Shown one piece after another: positions 8,887-33,085 of a stretch of DNA of 64,000 nt. The stretch is from Pseudomonas sp. MH9.2. GTDB taxonomy: Bacteria > Pseudomonadota > Gammaproteobacteria > Pseudomonadales > Pseudomonadaceae. The stretch is from assembly GCF_034353875.1 (NCBI RefSeq), contig NZ_CP133784.1, positions 4,740,501-4,804,500 of the forward strand. The letters run 5' to 3'. Both the position numbers and the translations under genes were made by a program. Positions within the stretch are counted from its first letter, which is position 1; each line of letters opens with the position of its first letter. Under the pieces are notes generated by a model. It did no database searches and had not been told where the DNA came from. It was given only the letters and a program-made list of their open reading frames with translations.

Positions 8887-9666
8887 TTAGAACTTATCTT
8901 TCCAAGCACGCAAGCTAGCAAAAATAGCACTTGGCGACTGATTGTCCGTGCCAGTCCGTTCGTCTGCTTTTTCTTTAACGGATCTTTCATGGGTCCGAAT
9001 GAATGGGTTAGTGCGTCGTTCCAGCGCTAAATTTGAAGGTAGGCTGATCCGGTTTTCGCTGCGCCATTGGCTCACTTGGGCGAAGCGTTCGGCGATGTCG
9101 CAATTACCCGGTTCTACCGCTTGGGCGAAGCGCAGATTGCTCAGGGTGTACTCATGTGTGCAATACACCAGTGTGCTGTCCGGCAGCGCCGCCAGACGGC
9201 TCAATGACTGATGCATTTGCTCGGGTGTGCCTTCAAACAGTCGGCCACAACCTGCCGCGAACAGCGTGTCGCCGCAAAACAGTAACGGTGCGGTCGGGTC
9301 GTCGTGGTAGAAGGCGATATGGCCCAGGGTATGACCGGGCACAGCGTACACAGCAAAGGTCAGGCCGAGTACGCTGATCTGGTCGTTGTCGTTGAGCGCG
9401 ACATCTCGCGCCGGGATGTTTTCGGCCGCAGGACCCAGTACCCGGGCACCAGTGGCTTTTTTCAGTTGCTCGACGCCGCCCACATGATCGAAATGGTGGT
9501 GGGTGACCAGAATGTCGCTGAGCTGCCAACCCGGATGCTGTTCCAGCCAGGCCAGAACCGGTGCAGCATCGCCAGGATCGACCACCGCACAGCACCGGCT
9601 GGCAGTGTTTTGTAACAACCAAATGTAGTTGTCAGTGAAAGCGGGCAGGGCATCAATCTGTATCAT
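8887..9666 (-). CDS. gloB: Hydroxyacylglutathione hydrolase (glyoxalase II)
   Basis: Cytoplasmic metallo-beta-lactamase-fold enzyme that hydrolyses S-lactoylglutathione to D-lactate and glutathione, the second step of methylglyoxal detoxification. It has 259 residues. The dinuclear metal motif THHHFDH is at residues 55-61, followed by further ligands in [11 protein letters not shown] and FCGDTLF. The glutathione-binding C-terminal part ends in NPFIR and a charged tail. It is divergent from the methyltransferase gene at 9749, with 82 bases between them for both promoters. Confidence 0.95.
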
Positions 9667-9748
9667 GGCGCAGTTCGCTAAGCGGGAAACAATGGTGCAT
9701 CTTAGGGTCTATAGAGGTTCTACGCGAGTGCCCTCATGGAGAACAGAA

Positions 9749-13815: not shown

Positions 13816-16800
13816 ATGACATCCCCCTCCCGCCCGTACTTCCATACCGAATCGCTCAAAGAAAGATTTTCCCGCGACGTGACGGACGCCGTCCTCGCCG
13901 AACGTATAGACGAGGACGAAGCGCGCTGGTTGCGAACGCTGGTGGGTCCCTCTGCTCTGGACGGGACGGTGATACCACCGCGGCTGGACCGCGTGATCAA
14001 AACCGGTGGTCTGCCCACTGACGTTGAACTGGCTGCGGCCGTGTTAATCAGCTACCCATCGAGCGACACCACCGTTTACCTGAGTACCCTGCTGTATGGC
14101 CTGGAGCGATTCGATGATAGGGAACAACTGCTGGTCAAATTGCTAAAGCGTTTCGGATCGCAAACAAGTGACGTGCCGGCGTTCGAAAATCAATTGATCG
14201 ATGAGCCGTTGTTTGAGTTTCGGATGCTCAAGATCATCGATCACCAAGTACAAGAACTCGTTGAGCTGGCCCAGCATTTTGAGCAAACACCCTCATTGCA
14301 ATCGATACTGAAATACGGCTTGGAAGGGCAGATCAAGACCGCAATACCCGAGACGTCAATCGATCCTTCGACGCACATTCTGCAGATCATCCAGTCAACA
14401 ACGCGGTCGTCGATGAAAGACGTCACGGCCGTCCAGTCGCTCGTGGATGAGGCACTGGACGAGTACATCGACCGGGAATTGCCGCAAGGCGCTGAGCACC
14501 GCTTTCTGGGGCCGTCGGGTACGACCCTTGACTCACTGGAGGCGCAACCTCAACGACAAGCACTGTCTGATACGGTCAAGGAACTGAAAACGTCTTTTGA
14601 TAATCGACTGGGTCATTTTTGGTGGTCTCCGGTAGGTCATGGCCAGACGCGTCGTGAATACGTTGCCGCTGCGTTGTCCGAATGCTTCCGACAGGCGCTG
14701 CTGGCACGCAGGCACGATGCTAAGCTCGACGCTCATGAGTTTCGACGAGTCAGCTCACTGTTAGATCCGTCTCTTGAGCAATGGGGCGATGGTGGTCAGG
14801 TTCGCCTCAGGAAGCTCACACTGTCTCTTGATCATCGAGATCCGTCGGAGCTGGCGGGCGTATTTCTGGTGGAGTGGATTGTGCCGTCGCTGTCGGAACT
14901 GCTGCTTTACTCAGTGGGAAAGGGACTGCGTTCGTTTCGAAATCGAAGGGAATTGAGCGATCACTTCTCCACAGGCGAAGGACGCACAGAACTCCTTCAC
15001 TACCTGTCGCTGGATGATCACGCTCGGGTGCGCACGGCGGCCAGGTTGCAGTTGGCGTTTGAAAACATCGACCGGCCCTTGTTTCTGGATCGAGTCGACT
15101 CGGTCATCGCCTTGCAGAACCGCAATCTGGCTTTCGTTATCGATCAGCCTCGCAGAGACCGCGATCTGGCAGCCGTCATGATTGACGATGCGTTGGATAT
15201 TCGTCATCTGATTGACCATCGCCTGTCGCGGCTGGGTGGCGGTGGTCGATGGCGTGATGTACCGGGCACGTTCGGTGAAGCATGGCGCCTGACACCTTCG
15301 ATCCCACTGGCACTCCCACCTGCCAAGGCCGTGGCGGCCACGCTCAGTCCATCCTGGCTAGAGCGGATGCAGACGCTTGATGATGCATCCCGGCTTATCT
15401 GGAAAGCGCACCCGGGTATCGAATCCTGCGCCCGCGATGTGCTGAACAGGCAGTTGGCCATCCTGTGTGATGGCCGTCTGGATGCGAAGGATGTTCACGT
15501 GCAGCTCATTGAGGCATTGCCTGTCGAGGTGCTGAGAAACACGGCAGAAGCCCGAGCTGGCGCAGTCAGTCCGACAATGCCCCCAGTCGATCTGATCACC
15601 CTGCTGCTCGACCGGGTGAGCGGTCATCGAGTAGTCGATGTGCACGTCGACAATCAGATTATCCTTGCTCCGGCAACGATTGCGCAGACAGACCCCAGCA
15701 CACTGCTGACGCCTGCGTTGGTCAATCATCTGCTGAAATACGCGCATGCCCAGTTTCCCGCAGCGCTGGCACGTCAGACCAGGCGGTTCCACACGCATGC
15801 TCTGCGTCAGGTCAACTCCCGATTGGACCCTCGGGCGTTGTCGTGCGAGATAACGGCAGCACTGCTTCGCCTGGAGCTGAACCTGAAGGGACGTCTGGAC
15901 GACCTCGATCAGCCAGCGCAGGTCATGCTTGAGCAAGTACTGGATTACCCTGTGCGTAGTCTGCGCCGGGTATTTGGCGACGCTATCGTCGAAGTCTGCG
16001 CCCTGTCGTGCACCTATGACGAGAAGCGCCCATCGGTGCAGATGACCAACCTTTTCATGCTGCATCAACCCTCACTCGCCCCCACGGGTGTAGTGCTCTG
16101 GTCTTCATTGTTGGGTGTACGACGATTCGACTCACTTGTTGGTCTCAAGCGGTTATTGATTGCGAAGCTGGCGAACACTCATCACCGCGAGCAATGGTTG
16201 GATCTTTTTCCCGAGCCTGAAAAGTGCATGATCCGCAAACACCTGGAGCAACCCGATGGCAATCTATTGTCTATCGATACTATTCCGCTGAATGAGCATT
16301 TCATTGAGCAGTTGCAACGGGTCGAGCAGGACCGGCAATGCAAGGCTGTCGAGCACGCGGTTCAACTCGCAACGGACTGCCGTCTAGAGACGAAACTGTT
16401 CAGCAACCTCGTGACCGCTGCCCAGGCCAATGACCAGATGGATGCAGCACTGGATGCGATGTCAGGGGCCATTCAGAGTGCCCTGTTCGAAGCGCAAATG
16501 CCGGCCTGGTTAAAAAAAGCCTCGATTGACGACTTGCAGAGCTATGCCGACGTACTCAAGCGTTACTTTCGGGTCGGTGATCCGATCAATGATTTTCTAT
16601 TCGGCATTCCGTATCTAAAGGCGTACGCCCGCGAAAAAATACTCGACCAGCTGAGTATCGACTTCCCCGGCCAGTCATTTGACCCGGACACCTTGCGAAT
16701 AACCCTTACGCGATACGTTGGAGCCCCGGTGGGCACGGGACAGACGCCTTCTTTTTTGCCCGCAGTGACCGATGTCAACACCGAAACATTGACCGAATAC

Positions 16801-19083
16801 TCGCTTAATCATTTTTCGACGATCCAGGGGGCGAGCCTGGCGGTGAGTTCTGCTGAAGAGAGCCTGGCTACCGTTCTGTTGACGCCCGCCTACCTGAGTG
16901 GGTTGATCCACACGTTGGATGTGGGAGCACATTATCAAAAACTGCTGACGCAAAAGCTGGACAGCAGTCATTCAGACTACAGCCTTCGCAGACGTTTATT
17001 TTTCAAGCAGTTGCCAGCGCTGATGATCGAAACTGCTGTTCAGAAAAAGCTTGAAGGGCAGCTCAGTGCCAGCGCCTACGATTACATAGAGGGCCTCATG
17101 GAGATGCCCGATAGTCTTGCCCGGCAAACTGTACATGAAGAGGACATTATCCTGTGTCCGCTTCGACTGATCGCGCAGGCGGGCGCCATGGCGGACAGTG
17201 TGCCCGGCTTTTACGTCATAGGCCCAAAGGACCCATCTCAGGGGCCGGTGATCCTTTATTCGATTTTTAACCAGAATTTTTGCTTCAAGGAGTACGCCGA
17301 CAACGCCAGCCTGCTGCAGGACATACGTACATCAAGCAGCCTGCAAACTCAGCTCATGCAGCGTGTCACGCCCGACGTGCAAACGCGTTATGGCCATCAC
17401 AGCTTCCTTCTGCCTCCGGTGTGGAGTACCGAGTTCTATACGGATTTCCCAATGTTTTCATTGGGGCCTATCACCCTGGACAGCGAACCTGTTGAGGGCA
17501 ATGTTTTGCAGTATCTGTTCCGTGATGCCGTTAGCGTATTCAAGGAAATAGCGAAAACGCAGACAGTCACTACTGCCCAGGCTGATTGGGAGTCGCTCAC
17601 GTACCTGATGACGCTTCAGGCCGAGCAAGTCCTTATTTTTCTGCCCGGCGATCTCGGCCTGATGGCTGCTGGCTGGCAAGGGCTATCGTTGTTTCACTCA
17701 TCAGCCACCTCGGCCGCCAGTCGACACTGGGGCGAGGCAGTGTCGGAGTTTACCGCTGCTTTGGCCATTTTTGTGTCGGCCAAACATTCAGCCTTGAAGG
17801 CGCTGGAGGTCGACGATTCAGCCTCTGAGGTGCTGAGTGACCTTGACGCGCCGCTGGGATTCTCTTGGCGAAATGCCCAATTGCCCCCAGACGTAAAAGT
17901 CCGTTTGCAGGCGTTCGAAGTGTCCGATATCGCATTGAGCGATTTGATGAAAGATGAGCTGTACAACCTTTACCAGGCGCCCTTGACGCTGAAAAAGTAT
18001 GCGGCTGTCGCTGGCAAGGTCTATCAGGTACAGATGCAGGATGAGGGGGCCTGGCACATTGTCAGTGGTGACAATGTCGGGCCGAACCTGAAACTCAATG
18101 ACCATCAGCAATGGGAACTCAATGTGCGTTGGGGGTTGAGGGGGGGAGGCGGGCTTCTTACTCGGCCTAAATCTCCTGATGCTTTAACCCCGAGTGAGAT
18201 CGACGCAGCGGTCAATCATGAGTTCGACGTTCTGGCCAGTGGAATGCCTGCGATACGTCTGGGGTATCGAGACCACGCGCGCAGGATTGGTCGCGCCCAT
18301 CTGCAAACCAAACGCTATATCGAGACCTGCCTGGAAAATCTGAACGTGCGAACGCCCGCTGCACCGCTCAATGCACAGGTCAACACAATCATTGGTGAGT
18401 TCTTCGGTGTACAGACGCCGAGTGCCGGACTTGTCGATGCAATCAAAAAGTCGACAACGGGCTTGTTCAACGCCGTGATGGATGCCTCGTTGGCACCTTA
18501 TTCTTCACCCCGTTTTGTCTTGGGGGTGAATCGGGCAGGGTACGAAACCACTGTCGCGTTCACGCTAAAAGCTGATCCACTCCAGCGTATCTACCTGAGC
18601 GAGCAGTTTTTTAAAGCGTCGAAATATCACCTCAAGCCTTCAGCCGTTGGCAGCGCGGGTTTCAATCTGAGGTCCCACTATCGAGCGGCTGCACTCATCC
18701 ACGAACTGTCTCACCTGAGCAATGACACGCACGACATCGCTTACCTGGAGGCCACGGCCCCTTTCCTCGATTTGTTGGCCATCGATACGCCGGACCAGAT
18801 TCGGATCAAATCCGATCTGGAGGAGTTGCATCACCGCTATCTTTCGCATCGGACCCCCATCAGTCAGCTGTTCAAGCACTTTAAAAATGGCCAGTGGCAA
18901 GACATCAATGATGAAGGGGAGGGTAAGCAATTCGTTCTGAACATCACCGGACAGACAACCCTGGCAGACGCTCGCCCGGTTTTTCTGGCCGATGCTGAAA
19001 AACGCAGCGAAATCATCCTGGGAAATGCTGACTCTTTGGGCCTTCTCGTCACGTTGTTGGGGCGCCAACGCTTCGCCGCTTGA
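13816..19083 (+). CDS. Large dermonecrotic-toxin-like (DUF6543-type) protein with C-terminal HExxH domain
   Basis: A 1755-residue protein without a signal peptide. The overall pattern matches large Pseudomonas proteins annotated as dermonecrotic toxin of unknown function. Blocks I recognise from that family are GDLGLMAAGWQGLSLFHS, YAAVAGKVYQVQMQDEGAW and QQWELNVRWGLRGGG. The C-terminal ~200 residues hold HELSH at residues 1629-1633, then SNDTHDIAY with Asp1640. This HExxH...TxDxxY arrangement resembles aspzincin (M35-like) zinc proteases, where His, His and Asp bind zinc; here the spacing is compact (7 residues from His1633 to Asp1640). The C-terminus has GNADSLGLLVTLLGRQ. It is probably delivered to other cells; the route is not visible. 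It is monocistronic. Confidence 0.8.
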   Translation: MTSPSRPYFHTESLKERFSRDVTDAVLAERIDEDEARWLRTLVGPSALDGTVIPPRLDRVIKTGGLPTDVELAAAVLISYPSSDTTVYLSTLLYGLERFDDREQLLVKLLKRFGSQTSDVPAFENQLIDEPLFEFRMLKIIDHQVQELVELAQHFEQTPSLQSILKYGLEGQIKTAIPETSIDPSTHILQIIQSTTRSSMKDVTAVQSLVDEALDEYIDRELPQGAEHRFLGPSGTTLDSLEAQPQRQALSDTVKELKTSFDNRLGHFWWSPVGHGQTRREYVAAALSECFRQALLARRHDAKLDAHEFRRVSSLLDPSLEQWGDGGQVRLRKLTLSLDHRDPSELAGVFLVEWIVPSLSELLLYSVGKGLRSFRNRRELSDHFSTGEGRTELLHYLSLDDHARVRTAARLQLAFENIDRPLFLDRVDSVIALQNRNLAFVIDQPRRDRDLAAVMIDDALDIRHLIDHRLSRLGGGGRWRDVPGTFGEAWRLTPSIPLALPPAKAVAATLSPSWLERMQTLDDASRLIWKAHPGIESCARDVLNRQLAILCDGRLDAKDVHVQLIEALPVEVLRNTAEARAGAVSPTMPPVDLITLLLDRVSGHRVVDVHVDNQIILAPATIAQTDPSTLLTPALVNHLLKYAHAQFPAALARQTRRFHTHALRQVNSRLDPRALSCEITAALLRLELNLKGRLDDLDQPAQVMLEQVLDYPVRSLRRVFGDAIVEVCALSCTYDEKRPSVQMTNLFMLHQPSLAPTGVVLWSSLLGVRRFDSLVGLKRLLIAKLANTHHREQWLDLFPEPEKCMIRKHLEQPDGNLLSIDTIPLNEHFIEQLQRVEQDRQCKAVEHAVQLATDCRLETKLFSNLVTAAQANDQMDAALDAMSGAIQSALFEAQMPAWLKKASIDDLQSYADVLKRYFRVGDPINDFLFGIPYLKAYAREKILDQLSIDFPGQSFDPDTLRITLTRYVGAPVGTGQTPSFLPAVTDVNTETLTEYSLNHFSTIQGASLAVSSAEESLATVLLTPAYLSGLIHTLDVGAHYQKLLTQKLDSSHSDYSLRRRLFFKQLPALMIETAVQKKLEGQLSASAYDYIEGLMEMPDSLARQTVHEEDIILCPLRLIAQAGAMADSVPGFYVIGPKDPSQGPVILYSIFNQNFCFKEYADNASLLQDIRTSSSLQTQLMQRVTPDVQTRYGHHSFLLPPVWSTEFYTDFPMFSLGPITLDSEPVEGNVLQYLFRDAVSVFKEIAKTQTVTTAQADWESLTYLMTLQAEQVLIFLPGDLGLMAAGWQGLSLFHSSATSAASRHWGEAVSEFTAALAIFVSAKHSALKALEVDDSASEVLSDLDAPLGFSWRNAQLPPDVKVRLQAFEVSDIALSDLMKDELYNLYQAPLTLKKYAAVAGKVYQVQMQDEGAWHIVSGDNVGPNLKLNDHQQWELNVRWGLRGGGGLLTRPKSPDALTPSEIDAAVNHEFDVLASGMPAIRLGYRDHARRIGRAHLQTKRYIETCLENLNVRTPAAPLNAQVNTIIGEFFGVQTPSAGLVDAIKKSTTGLFNAVMDASLAPYSSPRFVLGVNRAGYETTVAFTLKADPLQRIYLSEQFFKASKYHLKPSAVGSAGFNLRSHYRAAALIHELSHLSNDTHDIAYLEATAPFLDLLAIDTPDQIRIKSDLEELHHRYLSHRTPISQLFKHFKNGQWQDINDEGEGKQFVLNITGQTTLADARPVFLADAEKRSEIILGNADSLGLLVTLLGRQRFAA

Positions 19084-28058: not shown

Positions 28059-29678
28059 TCAGGCACTCAGCCGTGCTGTCACCTCATTCAACTGACCCGA
28101 CACGCTGTGCAGGTTACGGCTGGCCGTTTCGGTGCGTTTTACATTGTCCTGATTGGCGCTGGCGATTTGGGTAATCTCTACCAGATTGCGCGAGATATCT
28201 TCGGCGACCGAGGTTTGCTCTTCGGCCGCCGTGGCGATCTGTCGGTTCATGTCGCGGATCGCCTCGACCGCTTCGGTGATGCGATGCAGCATATGGCCTG
28301 CTTCGGTGACCTGCTCGACGCTTTCTTCGCTGCGAGACTGGCCACCCTCAATCGCTTTCACTGCGTCGAGGGCGCCAGTCTGTACGGTGTGGATGATTTG
28401 ATTGATTTCGGCAGTTGAGGCCGCGGTGCGCTGTGCCAGGCTGCGGACTTCATCGGCGACAACGGCAAACCCGCGTCCTGCATCGCCGGCGCGCGCCGCT
28501 TCAATGGCCGCGTTCAGGGCTAACAGGTTGGTCTGCTCGGCGATACCGCGAATGACTTCGAGTACTTTACCAATTCTTCCGCTGTCGGTTTCCAACTGAC
28601 GGATGACCGAGGCTGTATTGGATATCTCGCCACGCATGTGAGTAATCGCGGCAATGGTTGTCTGCATGACCTGTTCGCCTTGCTGGGCGCTGTGGTCGGC
28701 GGCGTCTGCCGCAGTGGCGGCCTGCTCTGCGTGTCGAGCCACTTCTTGCGCGGTGGCGGACATTTCGTTCATGGCCGTGGCGACCTGATCGGTGCGCTCG
28801 AACTGCTCGTTGGTGCCCTGAGCGATCAGTTGTGCAATCGCATTCAACTCACTGCTGGCGCTATCCAGGTCCGTAGCGCTGACCTTCAAACGGTTGAAGG
28901 TCTCTGCCAGAAAGTCTCGAAGCGTGTTGGCGGCCACGGCCAGACGGCCTAGCTCATCCTGACGCTCGGTGCTGACGCGGTCACCGAATTTACCTTGGCT
29001 GAGCTGGGCGACGTATTCGATCAATCGTCGAACTGGATCGATCAGATTGCGATTGACCAGCCACAGGCTCAGCAGTCCGATCAACAGCCCGGACACCAGC
29101 ATCACCGCAATACCCAGGAGAATTGTTTGGTTTGCGTCTGCGCTGATGTGCTCGGATTGTTGGCTGCCCTGCTCGCGTAATTGGGCGACCAGCTCACTCA
29201 TTTGTTCACTGGCGGGCCGATCCATGCCTTTGACTGCCGTATCACCTACAACAGGGTCGCCGTTAGAGGCTATAAATGCATCGCGGCCTTTCTGGTACGC
29301 GGTGCCCAGCACTTGATGGGCTTCGCGCAGTTTCTCGATCCGGGTTTTCAACTCGGGGGGCGTCTGGTTGGCGAGGCGCCCAAGGATGTCTTGCACCTCA
29401 CGTTGGCGCTCCTCGAATTGTCCCCAGTATTTATTCAGCTCTGCCGGTTCCTTGCCACGCAGCAGGACGTTCTTCCATTCCTGTACCTGAATTTTGAATT
29501 GGAGGTTGGCCTCATCGATCAGTTGGGATGTGTGCAACGGCCCGTCGATCAGGCCTTTGTAGTTCTGCACGCTATTGGAGAGGAAATGAAAACAGGCCAG
29601 CGCGATCAGCAGGATCGCCAACAGGCTGCCACCGAGCAACGCCAGAATCTGGGCTCTCAGCGATTTTTGCAAGAACAT
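28059..29678 (-). CDS. Methyl-accepting chemotaxis protein
   Basis: A 539-residue chemoreceptor. TM1 lies at residues ~8-32 (ILALLGGSLLAILLIALACF). A periplasmic, mostly helical sensor of ~170 residues follows. TM2 is TILLGIAVMLVSGLLIGLLS. After a HAMP domain, the signalling hairpin tip is [20 protein letters not shown]. The start is ATG 29678 (MFLQKSLRAQ); reading further upstream adds 76 codons without protein-like sequence. The ligand is unknown; the sensor looks like a four-helix-bundle type. Confidence 0.9.
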   Translation of the reverse strand: MFLQKSLRAQILALLGGSLLAILLIALACFHFLSNSVQNYKGLIDGPLHTSQLIDEANLQFKIQVQEWKNVLLRGKEPAELNKYWGQFEERQREVQDILGRLANQTPPELKTRIEKLREAHQVLGTAYQKGRDAFIASNGDPVVGDTAVKGMDRPASEQMSELVAQLREQGSQQSEHISADANQTILLGIAVMLVSGLLIGLLSLWLVNRNLIDPVRRLIEYVAQLSQGKFGDRVSTERQDELGRLAVAANTLRDFLAETFNRLKVSATDLDSASSELNAIAQLIAQGTNEQFERTDQVATAMNEMSATAQEVARHAEQAATAADAADHSAQQGEQVMQTTIAAITHMRGEISNTASVIRQLETDSGRIGKVLEVIRGIAEQTNLLALNAAIEAARAGDAGRGFAVVADEVRSLAQRTAASTAEINQIIHTVQTGALDAVKAIEGGQSRSEESVEQVTEAGHMLHRITEAVEAIRDMNRQIATAAEEQTSVAEDISRNLVEITQIASANQDNVKRTETASRNLHSVSGQLNEVTARLSA

Positions 29679-30023
29679 GGGGGGTCTCTCATGGCCAAGA
29701 AGAAGGCATTCCACGTGGGAACGGGTGCGGCAAAGACATCCCTGTTCTTCAAGGCCGGGATTGCCCCGAACTTGAAGGTCGTACCTAGAGGTCGGCGGAC
29801 GCCGGGGTTTCTTGAGCAATGCGGTTTTTCGTTCGGATGAACAGTACGCTGCGGCCAATCTCTTTCCGCCCCCGGTACGACTTTTCAAGAAAATTCGCAG
29901 CGGCAATAACTATCCTGAACCTCGCACGCCCTCCAGACCGCCAACGGAAGGCCATATTTTTCCTTCTTGTGGCGAATAAAATCTTCGTTTAAGCGATTGA
30001 TCAGCGCGGCGTGTTTACCCTGC

Positions 30024-30167: not shown

Positions 30168-30289
30168 TCAAGCTTCCACCGGACGGGTCGCTGGCCGCGG
30201 TAGATCAGATCACGGAATTCGGAATGCTCGAAAGCATTCATAAATATGACTATAAAAAGATAAGAAAGTATTCGAAAAGAGAATAGATC

Positions 30290-30307
30290 ACTGTCATATA
30301 TGACAGT
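30290..30307. promoter_or_regulatory. Perfect 18-bp palindrome upstream of the actin gene
   Basis: ACTGTCATATATGACAGT reads the same on both strands. It lies 137-154 bases before the actin ATG and 33-50 before the possible leader ORF. This is the shape expected for a dimeric repressor or activator site. No regulator gene is adjacent. Confidence 0.5.
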
Positions 30308-30339
30308 AGACGGAAAAAACCTTATTGGAGAAACTGTAC

Positions 30340-30390
30340 GTGAGCAACGGGCAGCATGATGACGACCATGCGCTCAATCACTGGGGCTAA
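30340..30390 (+). CDS. Possible 16-codon leader ORF upstream of the actin gene
   Basis: A GTG-started ORF encodes (M)SNGQHDDDHALNHWG. GGAG lies 9 bases before the GTG, the same Shine-Dalgarno and spacing as the actin gene. An inverted repeat CGGGCAG/CTGCCCG (30348-30354 and 30408-30414) flanks most of it. It could be a leader peptide; there is no direct support. Confidence 0.25.
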   Translation: MSNGQHDDDHALNHWG

Positions 30391-30443
30391 TGCAAATATC
30401 ATTGCGACTGCCCGCTGTTATTCAATAATAGGAGCAATACATC

Positions 30444-31532
30444 ATGAGTGAAGAAGTCTGCGCGATAGTTATTGATATTGGCAGTAGCACGATGAAGGTA
30501 GGTTTCGCCGGTGACGCCAGTCCAGCGGTATTTCCCACCGTAGTAGGCAGGCCAGAATCGGCTGATGCAAACCAAAAGGCAGTGTACGTGGGTGAGGAAG
30601 CGCTAGCTAAAAAAGATACATTGAAACTTAGCTGGCCGGTAAAGTATGGCTTCATCACTGACTGGGACGATTTCGAGCTCATTCTACACCATGTATTTGA
30701 CAACGTATTAAAAGTGAAACCTGCCGAGCATGACATACTCTTGACGGAGCCGCCGCTTAACCCACGTAGTAGCCGGGAGAAAATGGTTAGAATATTATTT
30801 GAGGTATTTAATTGCCGCGCTTGTTATGTCTCGATTCAAGCGGTTTTGGCTCTGTATGCCTCAGGACGTACAACGGGGATAGTTTTGGAGGTGGGCGATA
30901 GCGTTACTCATGCTGTTCCGATTTACGAAGGCTATGCTTTACCTCACGCAGTCTTGCGGACGGACATTGGAGGGCGAAACCTGACGGCCTACCTGGTTAA
31001 AATACTATCAGAACGCAGCTACTCTTTTGCCACAACGGCAGAGTCTTCAATTGTTCAGGAGATCAAAGAAAAGCTGTGTTACGTCGCAATGGATTTTGAG
31101 GCTGAAATGGAAGGCGCAGCGACCTCCAGCAGTCTTCAGGAATCGTATGAACTGGCAGATGGCCAAGAAATCACTGTGGGTGACGAACGTTTCCGGTGCC
31201 CGGAGGTGTTGTTTAAACCTTCACTGACTGGATTCAAATTCGCAGGAATTCATGAGGTGGTTTATAACAGCATCATGAAGTGCGATGTTGATATTCGAAA
31301 AGATCTTTATAGCAATATCATTTTAACTGGCGGCTCTACAATGTTTTCGGGCATGGCTGAAAGGCTGCAAAAGGAAATCGTCGCGCTAGCACCTGCCACC
31401 ATGAAAATTAAGGTTGTTGCACCACCTGAACGTAAATACAGCGTTTGGATTGGTGGTTCTATACTCGCTTCGCTCAGCACCTTTCAAGCAATGTGGATTA
31501 CCCGTAAAGACTATGATGGAGTGGGTCCTTAA
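30444..31532 (+). CDS. Eukaryotic-type actin homologue
   Basis: A 362-residue protein aligning end to end with conventional eukaryotic actin (375 residues), with more than half of positions identical by eye. It is far closer to actin than to MreB, FtsA or ParM. Conserved blocks are [44 protein letters not shown] and [20 protein letters not shown]. The phosphate loop keeps Asp11, Gly13, Ser14 and Lys18. Gln132 equals actin Gln137 and His156 equals His161. Differences: actin Asp154 is Glu149, His73 is Tyr68, the DNase-I loop is 4 residues shorter, and the last 8 residues of actin are missing. AGGAG lies 9 bases before the ATG. Base composition and rare codons (ATA, TTA) are unlike the neighbours, indicating transfer. 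It has no secretion signal. Role unknown: cytoskeletal protein, or a host-actin mimic or effector. Confidence 0.93.
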
Positions 31533-31584
31533 ATTGTGCATAGAAAGTGCTTTTAAGTTCGAGACCCCCCCTTTTAATTAGGAG

Positions 31585-32178
31585 CATCCGGCCAGGCTGC
31601 ACTTCTACACCGACCCGGAATTGATCGGGGGTACCGAAACCCAGGCGTTTGTTAGCCATCATGACGAAATCATTCTGATTGCCGTCCGAGGAAGTTTCCC
31701 TACGGCTGGCTGCTGTTCGGTTTTGGGCTTGGACGTATGGGTGGCGAGCCTTATCGGCATCATGGGAAACAGCAGCATTTCATGCCGGTGACGTTCAGTG
31801 ATGGCGAAAAGTCTTCCATTCTCTGGGACCTCGGTTGTGAATCCATTGAGGACACTGCGATATGCAAATACGCCCGTGAGCAGTAATGCACGTAGTTTCG
31901 ATGAGGGCTCAAGTCATACAACAACCCGCCTTGCAGCAGAAAGAAGTCGCCTCAATACGACCATTGGCCGCTTGGGGAAATTGAACGCCACCAAACTAAA
32001 ACCGGCCGATGTTTATGGCAATGCTGCGCAGTCGCCAGCGTTTGAGGCGAGCCTCAAGCGCTGGAGGGCTCATAAAGAGAATAACGTCAAAGTGCAACTG
32101 GCGATGATCCCTTCGCGGCCAGACAATACTGATATCGCGGGGGTCTACCAAGAAGCTGATCGTGACCCAATGGCGTAG
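31585..32178 (+). pseudogene. Decayed 3' part of a class 3 lipase / effector-like gene
   Basis: Pieces of one protein appear in different frames. Fragment A (31585-31695) reads EHPARLHFYTDPELIGG then FVSHHDEIILIAVRGS, a class-3-lipase-like start region. Fragment B (31689-31887), another frame, reads FPYGWLLFGFGLGRMGG and HHGKQQHFMPVTFSDGE, ending at TAA. Fragment C (~31890-32178) reads RLNTTIGRLGKLNATKLK and AFEASLKRWRAHKENNVK. The catalytic serine region between A and B is lost. The 5' part is absent: the reading begins ~50 bases after the actin stop, as if the actin segment replaced it. The lipase assignment comes from memory of related Pseudomonas proteins. Confidence 0.55.
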
Positions 32179-32263
32179 TGCTTCCTCCCGTGGTAATCCG
32201 CCGCACGCTGATGAGGCTGTTCGGCGGATAGTCGGGTGTGTCCGTGACCGCTTAAGCAGTGGC

Positions 32264-33085
32264 TCACACCATCGCCAGCACCCGCTTGCGAGTGGGCGCA
32301 GGCCAGGCGCTGTCGATGGCGTGCAGGTCTTCTGCGGTCAGGGTCAATTGTGCGGCAGCAGCGTTGAGGCGTATGTGCTCGGGCTTGACGGCTTTGGGAA
32401 TCGCGATGACGCCTTTATTGCGCAGCACCCAGGCCAGGCAGATCTGCGCGGGGGTGGCGTCATGCCGGGCAGCGATGTCTTGCAGCACCGGGTTTTTCAG
32501 CAGGTGCCCGGCCTGAGCGATGGGGCAGTAGGCCATCAGCGGCATGAGGTGGATCTGCGCCCAAGGCAGTAGATCGAATTCGATGCCGCGTTGTTCGAGG
32601 TTGTAGAGCACCTGATTGGTCGCGCAGGCCGGGTTGGCCAAGTGCGCCATGTCGGTGACGTCGAAATTGGAGACGCCCCAGTCACCGATTTTGCCGGCTT
32701 CGCGCAGGCGTTCGAAGGCTTCGACGGTTTCTTCCAGTGGGTGTTGGCCGGGCCAGTGCAGCAGGTACAGGTTGATGTGTTCTGTGCCGAGGCGTCGCAA
32801 GCTTCGTTCACACGCCTCTACTATGCCGGTGCGGCTTGCGTTGTGTGGGTAAACCTTGCTCACCAGAAACACGCGGTCGCGCTGCCCGGCGATGGCCTCA
32901 CCGACCACTTCCTCGGCACCGCCTTCTGCGTACATTTCAGCGGTATCGATCAGGGTCATGCCGTGTTCGATGCCCAAACGCAACGCGGCCACTTCATGTT
33001 TTCGTTGATGCGGATCTTCGCCCATGTGCCAGGTGCCCTGGCCGATGACGGGGACGGATGCGCCAGCCAATTCGAGGGTTTGCAT
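32264..33085 (-). CDS. Aldo/keto reductase
   Basis: A 273-residue NADPH-dependent (beta/alpha)8 oxidoreductase. Family signatures are LIDTAEMYAEGGAEEVVGEA with the catalytic Asp/Tyr, INLYLLHWPGQHPLEETVEA, and the NADPH-binding KNPVLQDIAARHDATPAQ ... IAIPKAVKPEHIRLN. The substrate is unknown. It is a single gene, divergent from nothing obvious; the 3' end faces the pseudogene region. Confidence 0.88.
   Translation of the reverse strand: MQTLELAGASVPVIGQGTWHMGEDPHQRKHEVAALRLGIEHGMTLIDTAEMYAEGGAEEVVGEAIAGQRDRVFLVSKVYPHNASRTGIVEACERSLRRLGTEHINLYLLHWPGQHPLEETVEAFERLREAGKIGDWGVSNFDVTDMAHLANPACATNQVLYNLEQRGIEFDLLPWAQIHLMPLMAYCPIAQAGHLLKNPVLQDIAARHDATPAQICLAWVLRNKGVIAIPKAVKPEHIRLNAAAAQLTLTAEDLHAIDSAWPAPTRKRVLAMV

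Follow-up and report, generated by a model that had tools for sequence, protein, structure and literature searches.

The locus described here lies on the chromosome of Pseudomonas sp. MH9.2, in a stretch of 64,000 nucleotides (the window; positions 4,740,501 to 4,804,500 of contig NZ_CP133784.1), and consists of an actin gene placed between a chemotaxis receptor gene and the decayed remains of a lipase gene, which are followed by an aldo/keto reductase gene (Table 1). The coordinates, reading frame and length given for the actin gene in an initial annotation made from the DNA alone are all exact. In a profile search, its product matches PF00022 over residues 3-361 with an E-value of 4.8e-124 and 414.5 bits (cut-off 27), and it matches PDB actins over residues 1-362 (E about 1e-162). 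About two-thirds of its residues are identical to animal and plant actin; its identity to those eukaryotic rows of our alignment A1 that have a named organism is 61-68%. It has the actin fold, and its predicted fold is intact. The alignment with actin is not quite over the whole length, as had been claimed: residues 1-362 all match, but four D-loop residues (44-47 in the alignment used, their exact place being alignment-dependent) and the last eight residues of actin are missing.

Table 1. Features at and around the actin gene, in window coordinates
Feature	Position	Strand	Basis or remark
Chemotaxis receptor on the left, with HAMP and MCP signalling domains	28059..29906	-	
Perfect 18-bp palindrome	30290..30307	.	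About 137 bases upstream of the actin start
Shine-Dalgarno AGGAG	30430-30434	+	Sequence; nine bases before the ATG
Actin gene, 362 codons and stop	30444..31532	+	
In-frame codons of the actin C-terminal tail, past the stop	31533..31556	+	Sequence; relatives with full-length tails
Class 3 lipase, decayed C-terminal part	31582..32178	+	Three tblastn pieces against a 717-aa Lipase_3 protein
Aldo/keto reductase on the right, running towards the lipase remnant	32264..33085	-	Synteny

The gene is free of introns and preceded by a good Shine-Dalgarno, as annotated, and its unusual composition is equally apparent, with a GC content of 47.1% and a GC3 of 46.1% against a GC3 of 66-76% in five flanking genes. 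The loss of the last eight residues is due to an in-frame stop, downstream of which the frame still reads as actin tail; in the window copy these tail codons are presumably left untranslated. Copies of 370-374 residues occur in other Pseudomonas, and the closest relative (P0006) has an altered tail. The upstream palindrome is a single site in the genome when up to two mismatches are allowed. It is also found upstream of the actin gene of Pseudomonas sp. UMAB-08 (locus L005, genome G126, protein P0035), whose genome has one further site with two mismatches, and it is a possible regulator site. A Lux-type box, whose pattern we take to be CTG-N10-CAG, was considered as its identity and dropped because this pattern is common in the window (37 matches versus 21.5 expected). 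Promoter-like and terminator-like sites show no excess over chance.

Actin is a frequent contaminant, and one locus recovered in our scan of genome contigs (L011, 6243-7371 of a 'Verrucomicrobiaceae' MAG contig) has an actin split over frames, like an intron-bearing gene, that looks like eukaryotic contamination. For the window, however, eukaryotic contamination or an assembly chimera, which the initial annotation had named as what could undo its reading, is extremely improbable. The gene lacks introns and has a bacterial ribosome-binding site, the genome (G000) is a single contig of 5.58 Mb rated 100% complete, and UMAB-08 carries an actin 82% identical between the same neighbours, in flanking DNA about 95% identical on both sides. 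Contamination was rejected on the latter two grounds and, since the locus is the same in both genomes, the place of the actin gene is fixed on the chromosome in two species. Carriage by a plasmid or phage was likewise rejected, as a tblastn search with the actin against 72,556 plasmid records and 50,697 records of phages gave no match.

Within the genus, actin matches are confined to four of 398 genomes, three of them full-length (that of the window included) and one a 35-residue fragment (genome G029); among 144 relatives, the matches are the window's own genome and the same fragment. The latter (G029:C1:1626991-1627098, minus strand; 1501-1608 of locus L004) is small and separate, in a complete Pseudomonas genome, where the last 35 or so residues of an open frame, just before its stop, are near-identical to the N-terminus of eukaryotic actin. 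In protein searches the best 120 matches were scored and listed, so more bacterial copies may exist. The matches listed include four further proteins that, with that of the window, make up type A, namely P0006 (97% identical), P0024 (88%), P0034 (83%) and P0035 of UMAB-08 (82%). They also include the four proteins of a second type, B: P0122 of P. asturiensis, its relative P0123 (93%), and P0130 and P0132 (P. viridiflava P0130). Database names of the Pseudomonas actins are automatic, e.g. 'actin, cytoplasmic 2'.

The suggestion that such a protein might belong with ordinary bacterial actin-like proteins finds no support. The window actin scores under all curated cut-offs for MreB, MamK, BeeR, crenactin and syringactin, and these families were rejected. 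Syringactin (NF040575) resembles it in the C-terminal third, where the Pseudomonas proteins (eight of the nine, P0034 left out) score 115-133 bits; since the cut-off is 300 bits and the window protein reaches 115, it falls outside this family. For each of the 11 actins compared with this model the match is limited to the C-terminal part, the three from outside Pseudomonas scoring 139-145 bits. In a 71-row tree, which like the others has no rows for MreB, ParM, FtsA or archaeal actins, a starred branch (96/98) separates Arp1 and Arp2 from the conventional actins of bacteria and eukaryotes, the window actin among them.

The Pseudomonas types A and B form one clade, both in this tree (100/95) and in a 65-row tree from which six rows were dropped (99/93; both starred). 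In both trees the clade is nested among eukaryotic rows, though the branches concerned carry no star, and environmental proteins with no named organism make up 18 of the 42 rows counted as eukaryotic. A 58-row tree omits type B (four rows), Microcystis and eight others, including Arp2; besides Microcystis, six of the bacterial rows removed are long-branched or of doubtful origin. There the Pseudomonas clade leaves an unresolved fork together with environmental row P0136 (91/93). Because the placement of the clade differs among the three trees, no eukaryotic donor is named. Of the 14 loci of the scan, L014 and the frame-split L011 do not figure in the trees, and P0035 stands for L005. Placing all 27 bacterial rows in one clade is weakly rejected (p-AU 0.031), but a single bacterial clade without P0141 and L008 (Streptomyces and delta MAG rows) is not (p-AU 0.359). 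A clade of type A with ten other bacterial rows is not rejected (p 0.386) and is absent from the 58-row tree. The transfer from a eukaryote that had been proposed is supported by the identity of the protein as an actin, its fixed locus and its placement among conventional actins; the gene was likely captured from a eukaryote, directly or by way of other bacteria, by an ancestor of a small Pseudomonas clade.

The nearest bacterial kin of the Pseudomonas actin is likely that of Microcystis. In both trees that include a Microcystis actin, that of strain LEGE 91341 (L012) is sister to the Pseudomonas clade, with 86/67 in the 71-row tree and 95/89 (starred) in the 65-row tree, on a long branch whose bootstrap had not settled. 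Eukaryote-type actins already in print include those of Microcystis (PMC3254629) and Haliangium (PMC3035250). The view that they are known in very few bacteria is nevertheless too strong, since one scan of genome contigs yielded 14 loci, of which at least one is the contamination-like L011. Further eukaryote-type actins are found in Thiosymbion (a nematode ectosymbiont), Thiobius, Aureispira, a Polyangia MAG and Sessilibacter (L007, L010, L013, L015 and L016), and these keep at most 0.31 of D-loop positions. In Planktothrix (L018, 7977-8750) the actin is about 257 aa long and without most of subdomains 2 and 4, keeping 0.68 of subdomain 1 and 0.62 of subdomain 3; a profilin gene (9280-9699) follows about 530 bases after it. 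Profilin was found in three of eight other actin-bearing bacterial genomes, from Microcystis (G457), a Polyangia MAG (G458) and Planktothrix (G460), and was absent from the remaining five of the eight searched.

What the Pseudomonas actins have kept and lost is uneven (numbering is that of beta-actin, and residue counts come from 32 of the 42 eukaryotic and environmental rows, those longer than 420 aa being omitted). The window protein keeps 175 of 231 near-invariant positions. All 14 positions of the SD1/SD3 (barbed-end) cleft are retained, as are all 38 of a wider barbed-face set, picked after viewing the alignment, of which 34 are kept in UMAB-08, 26 in P. viridiflava and 22 in P. asturiensis. 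Compared with other near-invariant positions, the cleft is better kept with p 0.024 in the window protein, 0.030 in P0006 and 0.017 in P. asturiensis, versus 0.10 in P. viridiflava (11 of 13 near-invariant cleft positions kept) and 0.16 in UMAB-08. The D-loop, with its four missing residues, retains 2 of 13 positions in the window protein and one or two (0.08-0.15) in each of the nine Pseudomonas rows; among its losses are M44 and M47. Each of the two phosphate loops keeps four of seven positions, the substitutions including N12I, G15S, D154E and G158S. Q137 and H161, which presumably have a role in the ATPase of actin, are both kept in three of five type A rows (window included) and neither is kept in any of the four type B rows. 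Relative to conventional eukaryotic actin (PF00022), the window protein thus shares fold, level of identity and barbed-end cleft and differs in its shortened D-loop, phosphate loops and lost C-terminus.

These features bear on the idea that the actin works inside the bacterium, polymerizing into a filament or shell, its fast change reflecting adaptation to a cell with no actin-binding proteins. The model would be ActM of Microcystis aeruginosa PCC 7806, like the Pseudomonas protein a eukaryote-type bacterial actin acquired by horizontal transfer and changed thereafter, which is reported to make ribbon filaments and shells, the authors arguing that actin freed of its partners changes quickly (Guljamow et al. 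2012, PMC3254629). The sisterhood with Microcystis, the intact predicted fold and the retention of Q137 and H161 in the window protein all accord with this. However, a D-loop so shortened in all nine Pseudomonas rows and the loss of both Q137 and H161 throughout type B speak against it. A profilin gene, PfnM, adjoins ActM and profilin also accompanies the actin of L012, whereas there is no profilin match in the three Pseudomonas genomes searched (G000, G126 and G334). L012 moreover keeps 0.62 of D-loop positions, far from the Pseudomonas values. An internal filament is a live alternative but somewhat unlikely. BARP of Haliangium ochraceum, compared by description only, is likewise a chromosomal actin-family protein, from a different phylum (PMC3035250).

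The Pseudomonas actin also changes unusually fast. Between the window and UMAB-08, the single DNA pair on which the rate tests rest, 86 of 1086 bases differ and there is no gap, with 39, 24 and 23 differences at codon positions 1, 2 and 3. Nonsynonymous change amounts to 68.5 of 825.7 sites (8.3%) and synonymous change to 17.5 of 260.3 (6.7%), as against 38 of 966 (3.9%) in the adjoining non-coding DNA (the upstream stretch and the lipase remnant). Nonsynonymous change exceeds that of non-coding DNA (p 8.7e-5) and that of synonymous and non-coding sites taken together (p 4.8e-4), but not significantly that of synonymous sites alone (p 0.29). In this pair, then, change in the actin protein outpaces that of the adjacent non-coding DNA. 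With a dN of 0.087 and a dS of 0.074, dN/dS is about 1.2, versus dN 0.003-0.021 and dS 0.07-0.23 in six flanking genes (one partial). The patch at 30178-32262, where the non-coding difference from UMAB-08 (L005) is 3.9%, adjoins genes of which five of six have synonymous distances of 0.17-0.23; since the synonymous rate of the actin gene is below that of these five, a more recent exchange of the patch between lineages is possible.

The actin could also be a relic, a captured gene losing constraint and with no present function in this lineage. A dN/dS not significantly above 1, the premature stop in the window copy, the altered tail of P0006, the true pseudogene remnant next door and the absence of stops from 362 codons, which is not unusual for neutral change (P 0.084), would all be consistent with this. 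However, the 65 amino acids that differ, in a frame free of stops and indels, exceed the 56.3 +/- 4.2 expected when the 86 base changes are simulated as neutral (at most 65 in 98.6% of the 3000 runs), an excess that, like that over the local non-coding rate, decay alone does not yield. Open frames of at least 362 codons in the five type A proteins and of normal length in the four of type B have in addition persisted across a dN of 0.46 and a saturated dS (window versus P. asturiensis), and the Shine-Dalgarno and palindrome are common to UMAB-08. We regard a relic as a live alternative but an unlikely one.

The neighbourhood offers a further clue. The lipase remnant, three frame-broken pieces lying 49 bases past the actin stop on the same strand, is also present in UMAB-08. 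Its 126-codon frame is matched in 16 of 59 Pseudomonas genomes, that of the window included; the lipase is intact as a 714-803-codon open frame in 14 of the 15 others, the exception, G034, having frames of 380 and 312 codons only. In two genomes, G052 (L030) and G030 (L049), the intact lipase lies behind DUF4123 and VgrG genes. The succession of vgrG, DUF4123 and lipase is the customary composition of a type VI secretion cargo island. In G030, and by coordinates in no other of the 15, this island is convergent to the same reductase as in the window. Among the eight of 112 reductase loci compared, G030 has the adjoining lipase island, G022 an uninterrupted CorA-reductase-efflux order and the other six neither. 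The remnant and its intact kin in vgrG islands suggest that the actin gene lies within or beside a type VI effector locus that has decayed. Neither a vgrG nor a DUF4123 remnant was found by the actin gene, and the best adaptor match (E 0.019) falls within the chemotaxis gene, on the opposite strand. G000, G126 and G334 all have type VI sheath genes, the window genome two whole and one partial, elsewhere than the actin locus. A type III effector was considered and rejected: there is no hrp-box-like match in the window, L003, L005 or L031, and the YscC-type secretin, the sole T3SS component searched, scores below the cut-off in G000 and G126 but above it in G334. Large proteins with a ToxA_N domain (dermonecrotic toxin N-terminal) are encoded within about 12 kb of the actin in the window (13816-19083, plus strand) and in P. 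asturiensis (L031, 5962-11206, minus strand), at loci with different neighbours; with eight or nine ToxA_N matches per genome, this closeness may be chance.

Taken together, the kept fold and one binding face, the loss of filament and catalytic parts, the fast change, the absence of profilin and the effector remnant point to an exported decoy more than to a skeleton inside the cell. Between the cytoskeletal novelty and the mimic that the initial annotation had proposed, we lean tentatively towards the mimic. On this tentative reading, to which we give a probability a little short of even, the captured eukaryote-type actin would now be exported and have its target in other organisms' cells, instead of forming a skeleton in its own. 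An actin taken from a eukaryote by the ancestor of a small Pseudomonas clade would, with its barbed face intact and its D-loop crippled, have become a subunit unable to extend a normal filament. Such a subunit could tie up actin-binding proteins (of the profilin, cofilin, gelsolin or WH2 type), or it could attach to a host filament at its pointed end and halt it. Delivery into phagotrophic protists or another eukaryotic host might be by the T6SS, and rapid change could reflect a contest with the eukaryotic target. Against an exported decoy speak the lack of any export signal or secretion domain found in the window actin, the lack of an adjoining vgrG or adaptor piece, a cleft less well kept in P. 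viridiflava and a wider barbed face less well kept in two type B rows, the modest advantage of the cleft over other near-invariant positions (p 0.024 in the window protein, 0.16 in UMAB-08), the lost last eight residues, the non-significant comparison with synonymous sites alone in one DNA pair, the sister position of the Microcystis actin, and the intracellular action of the sole functionally studied kin found, Microcystis ActM (PMC3254629). A more specific form of the exported decoy seems doubtful, namely that the actin is a weapon injected into grazing protists or host cells, a monomer with a crippled D-loop in an old type VI lipase effector slot that caps filaments and soaks up actin-binding proteins, in an arms race that would show in its sequence.

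Among the papers listed in a literature search, in which subscription journals and preprints were barely covered, none was about a Pseudomonas actin as judged by title and opening of the abstract, and the main text of a 2022 review on actin mimicry by pathogens (PMC9569871) does not contain 'actin homolog', 'actin-like' or 'Pseudomonas'. If the weapon reading were true, this would be the first injected actin. More generally, actin is among the most constrained of eukaryotic proteins. An actin freed in a bacterium, its fold and one face kept and its residues changing faster than the non-coding DNA around it, makes it testable what keeps eukaryotic actin constant, and also whether bacteria use actin itself, beyond actin-modifying toxins, against eukaryotic cells.
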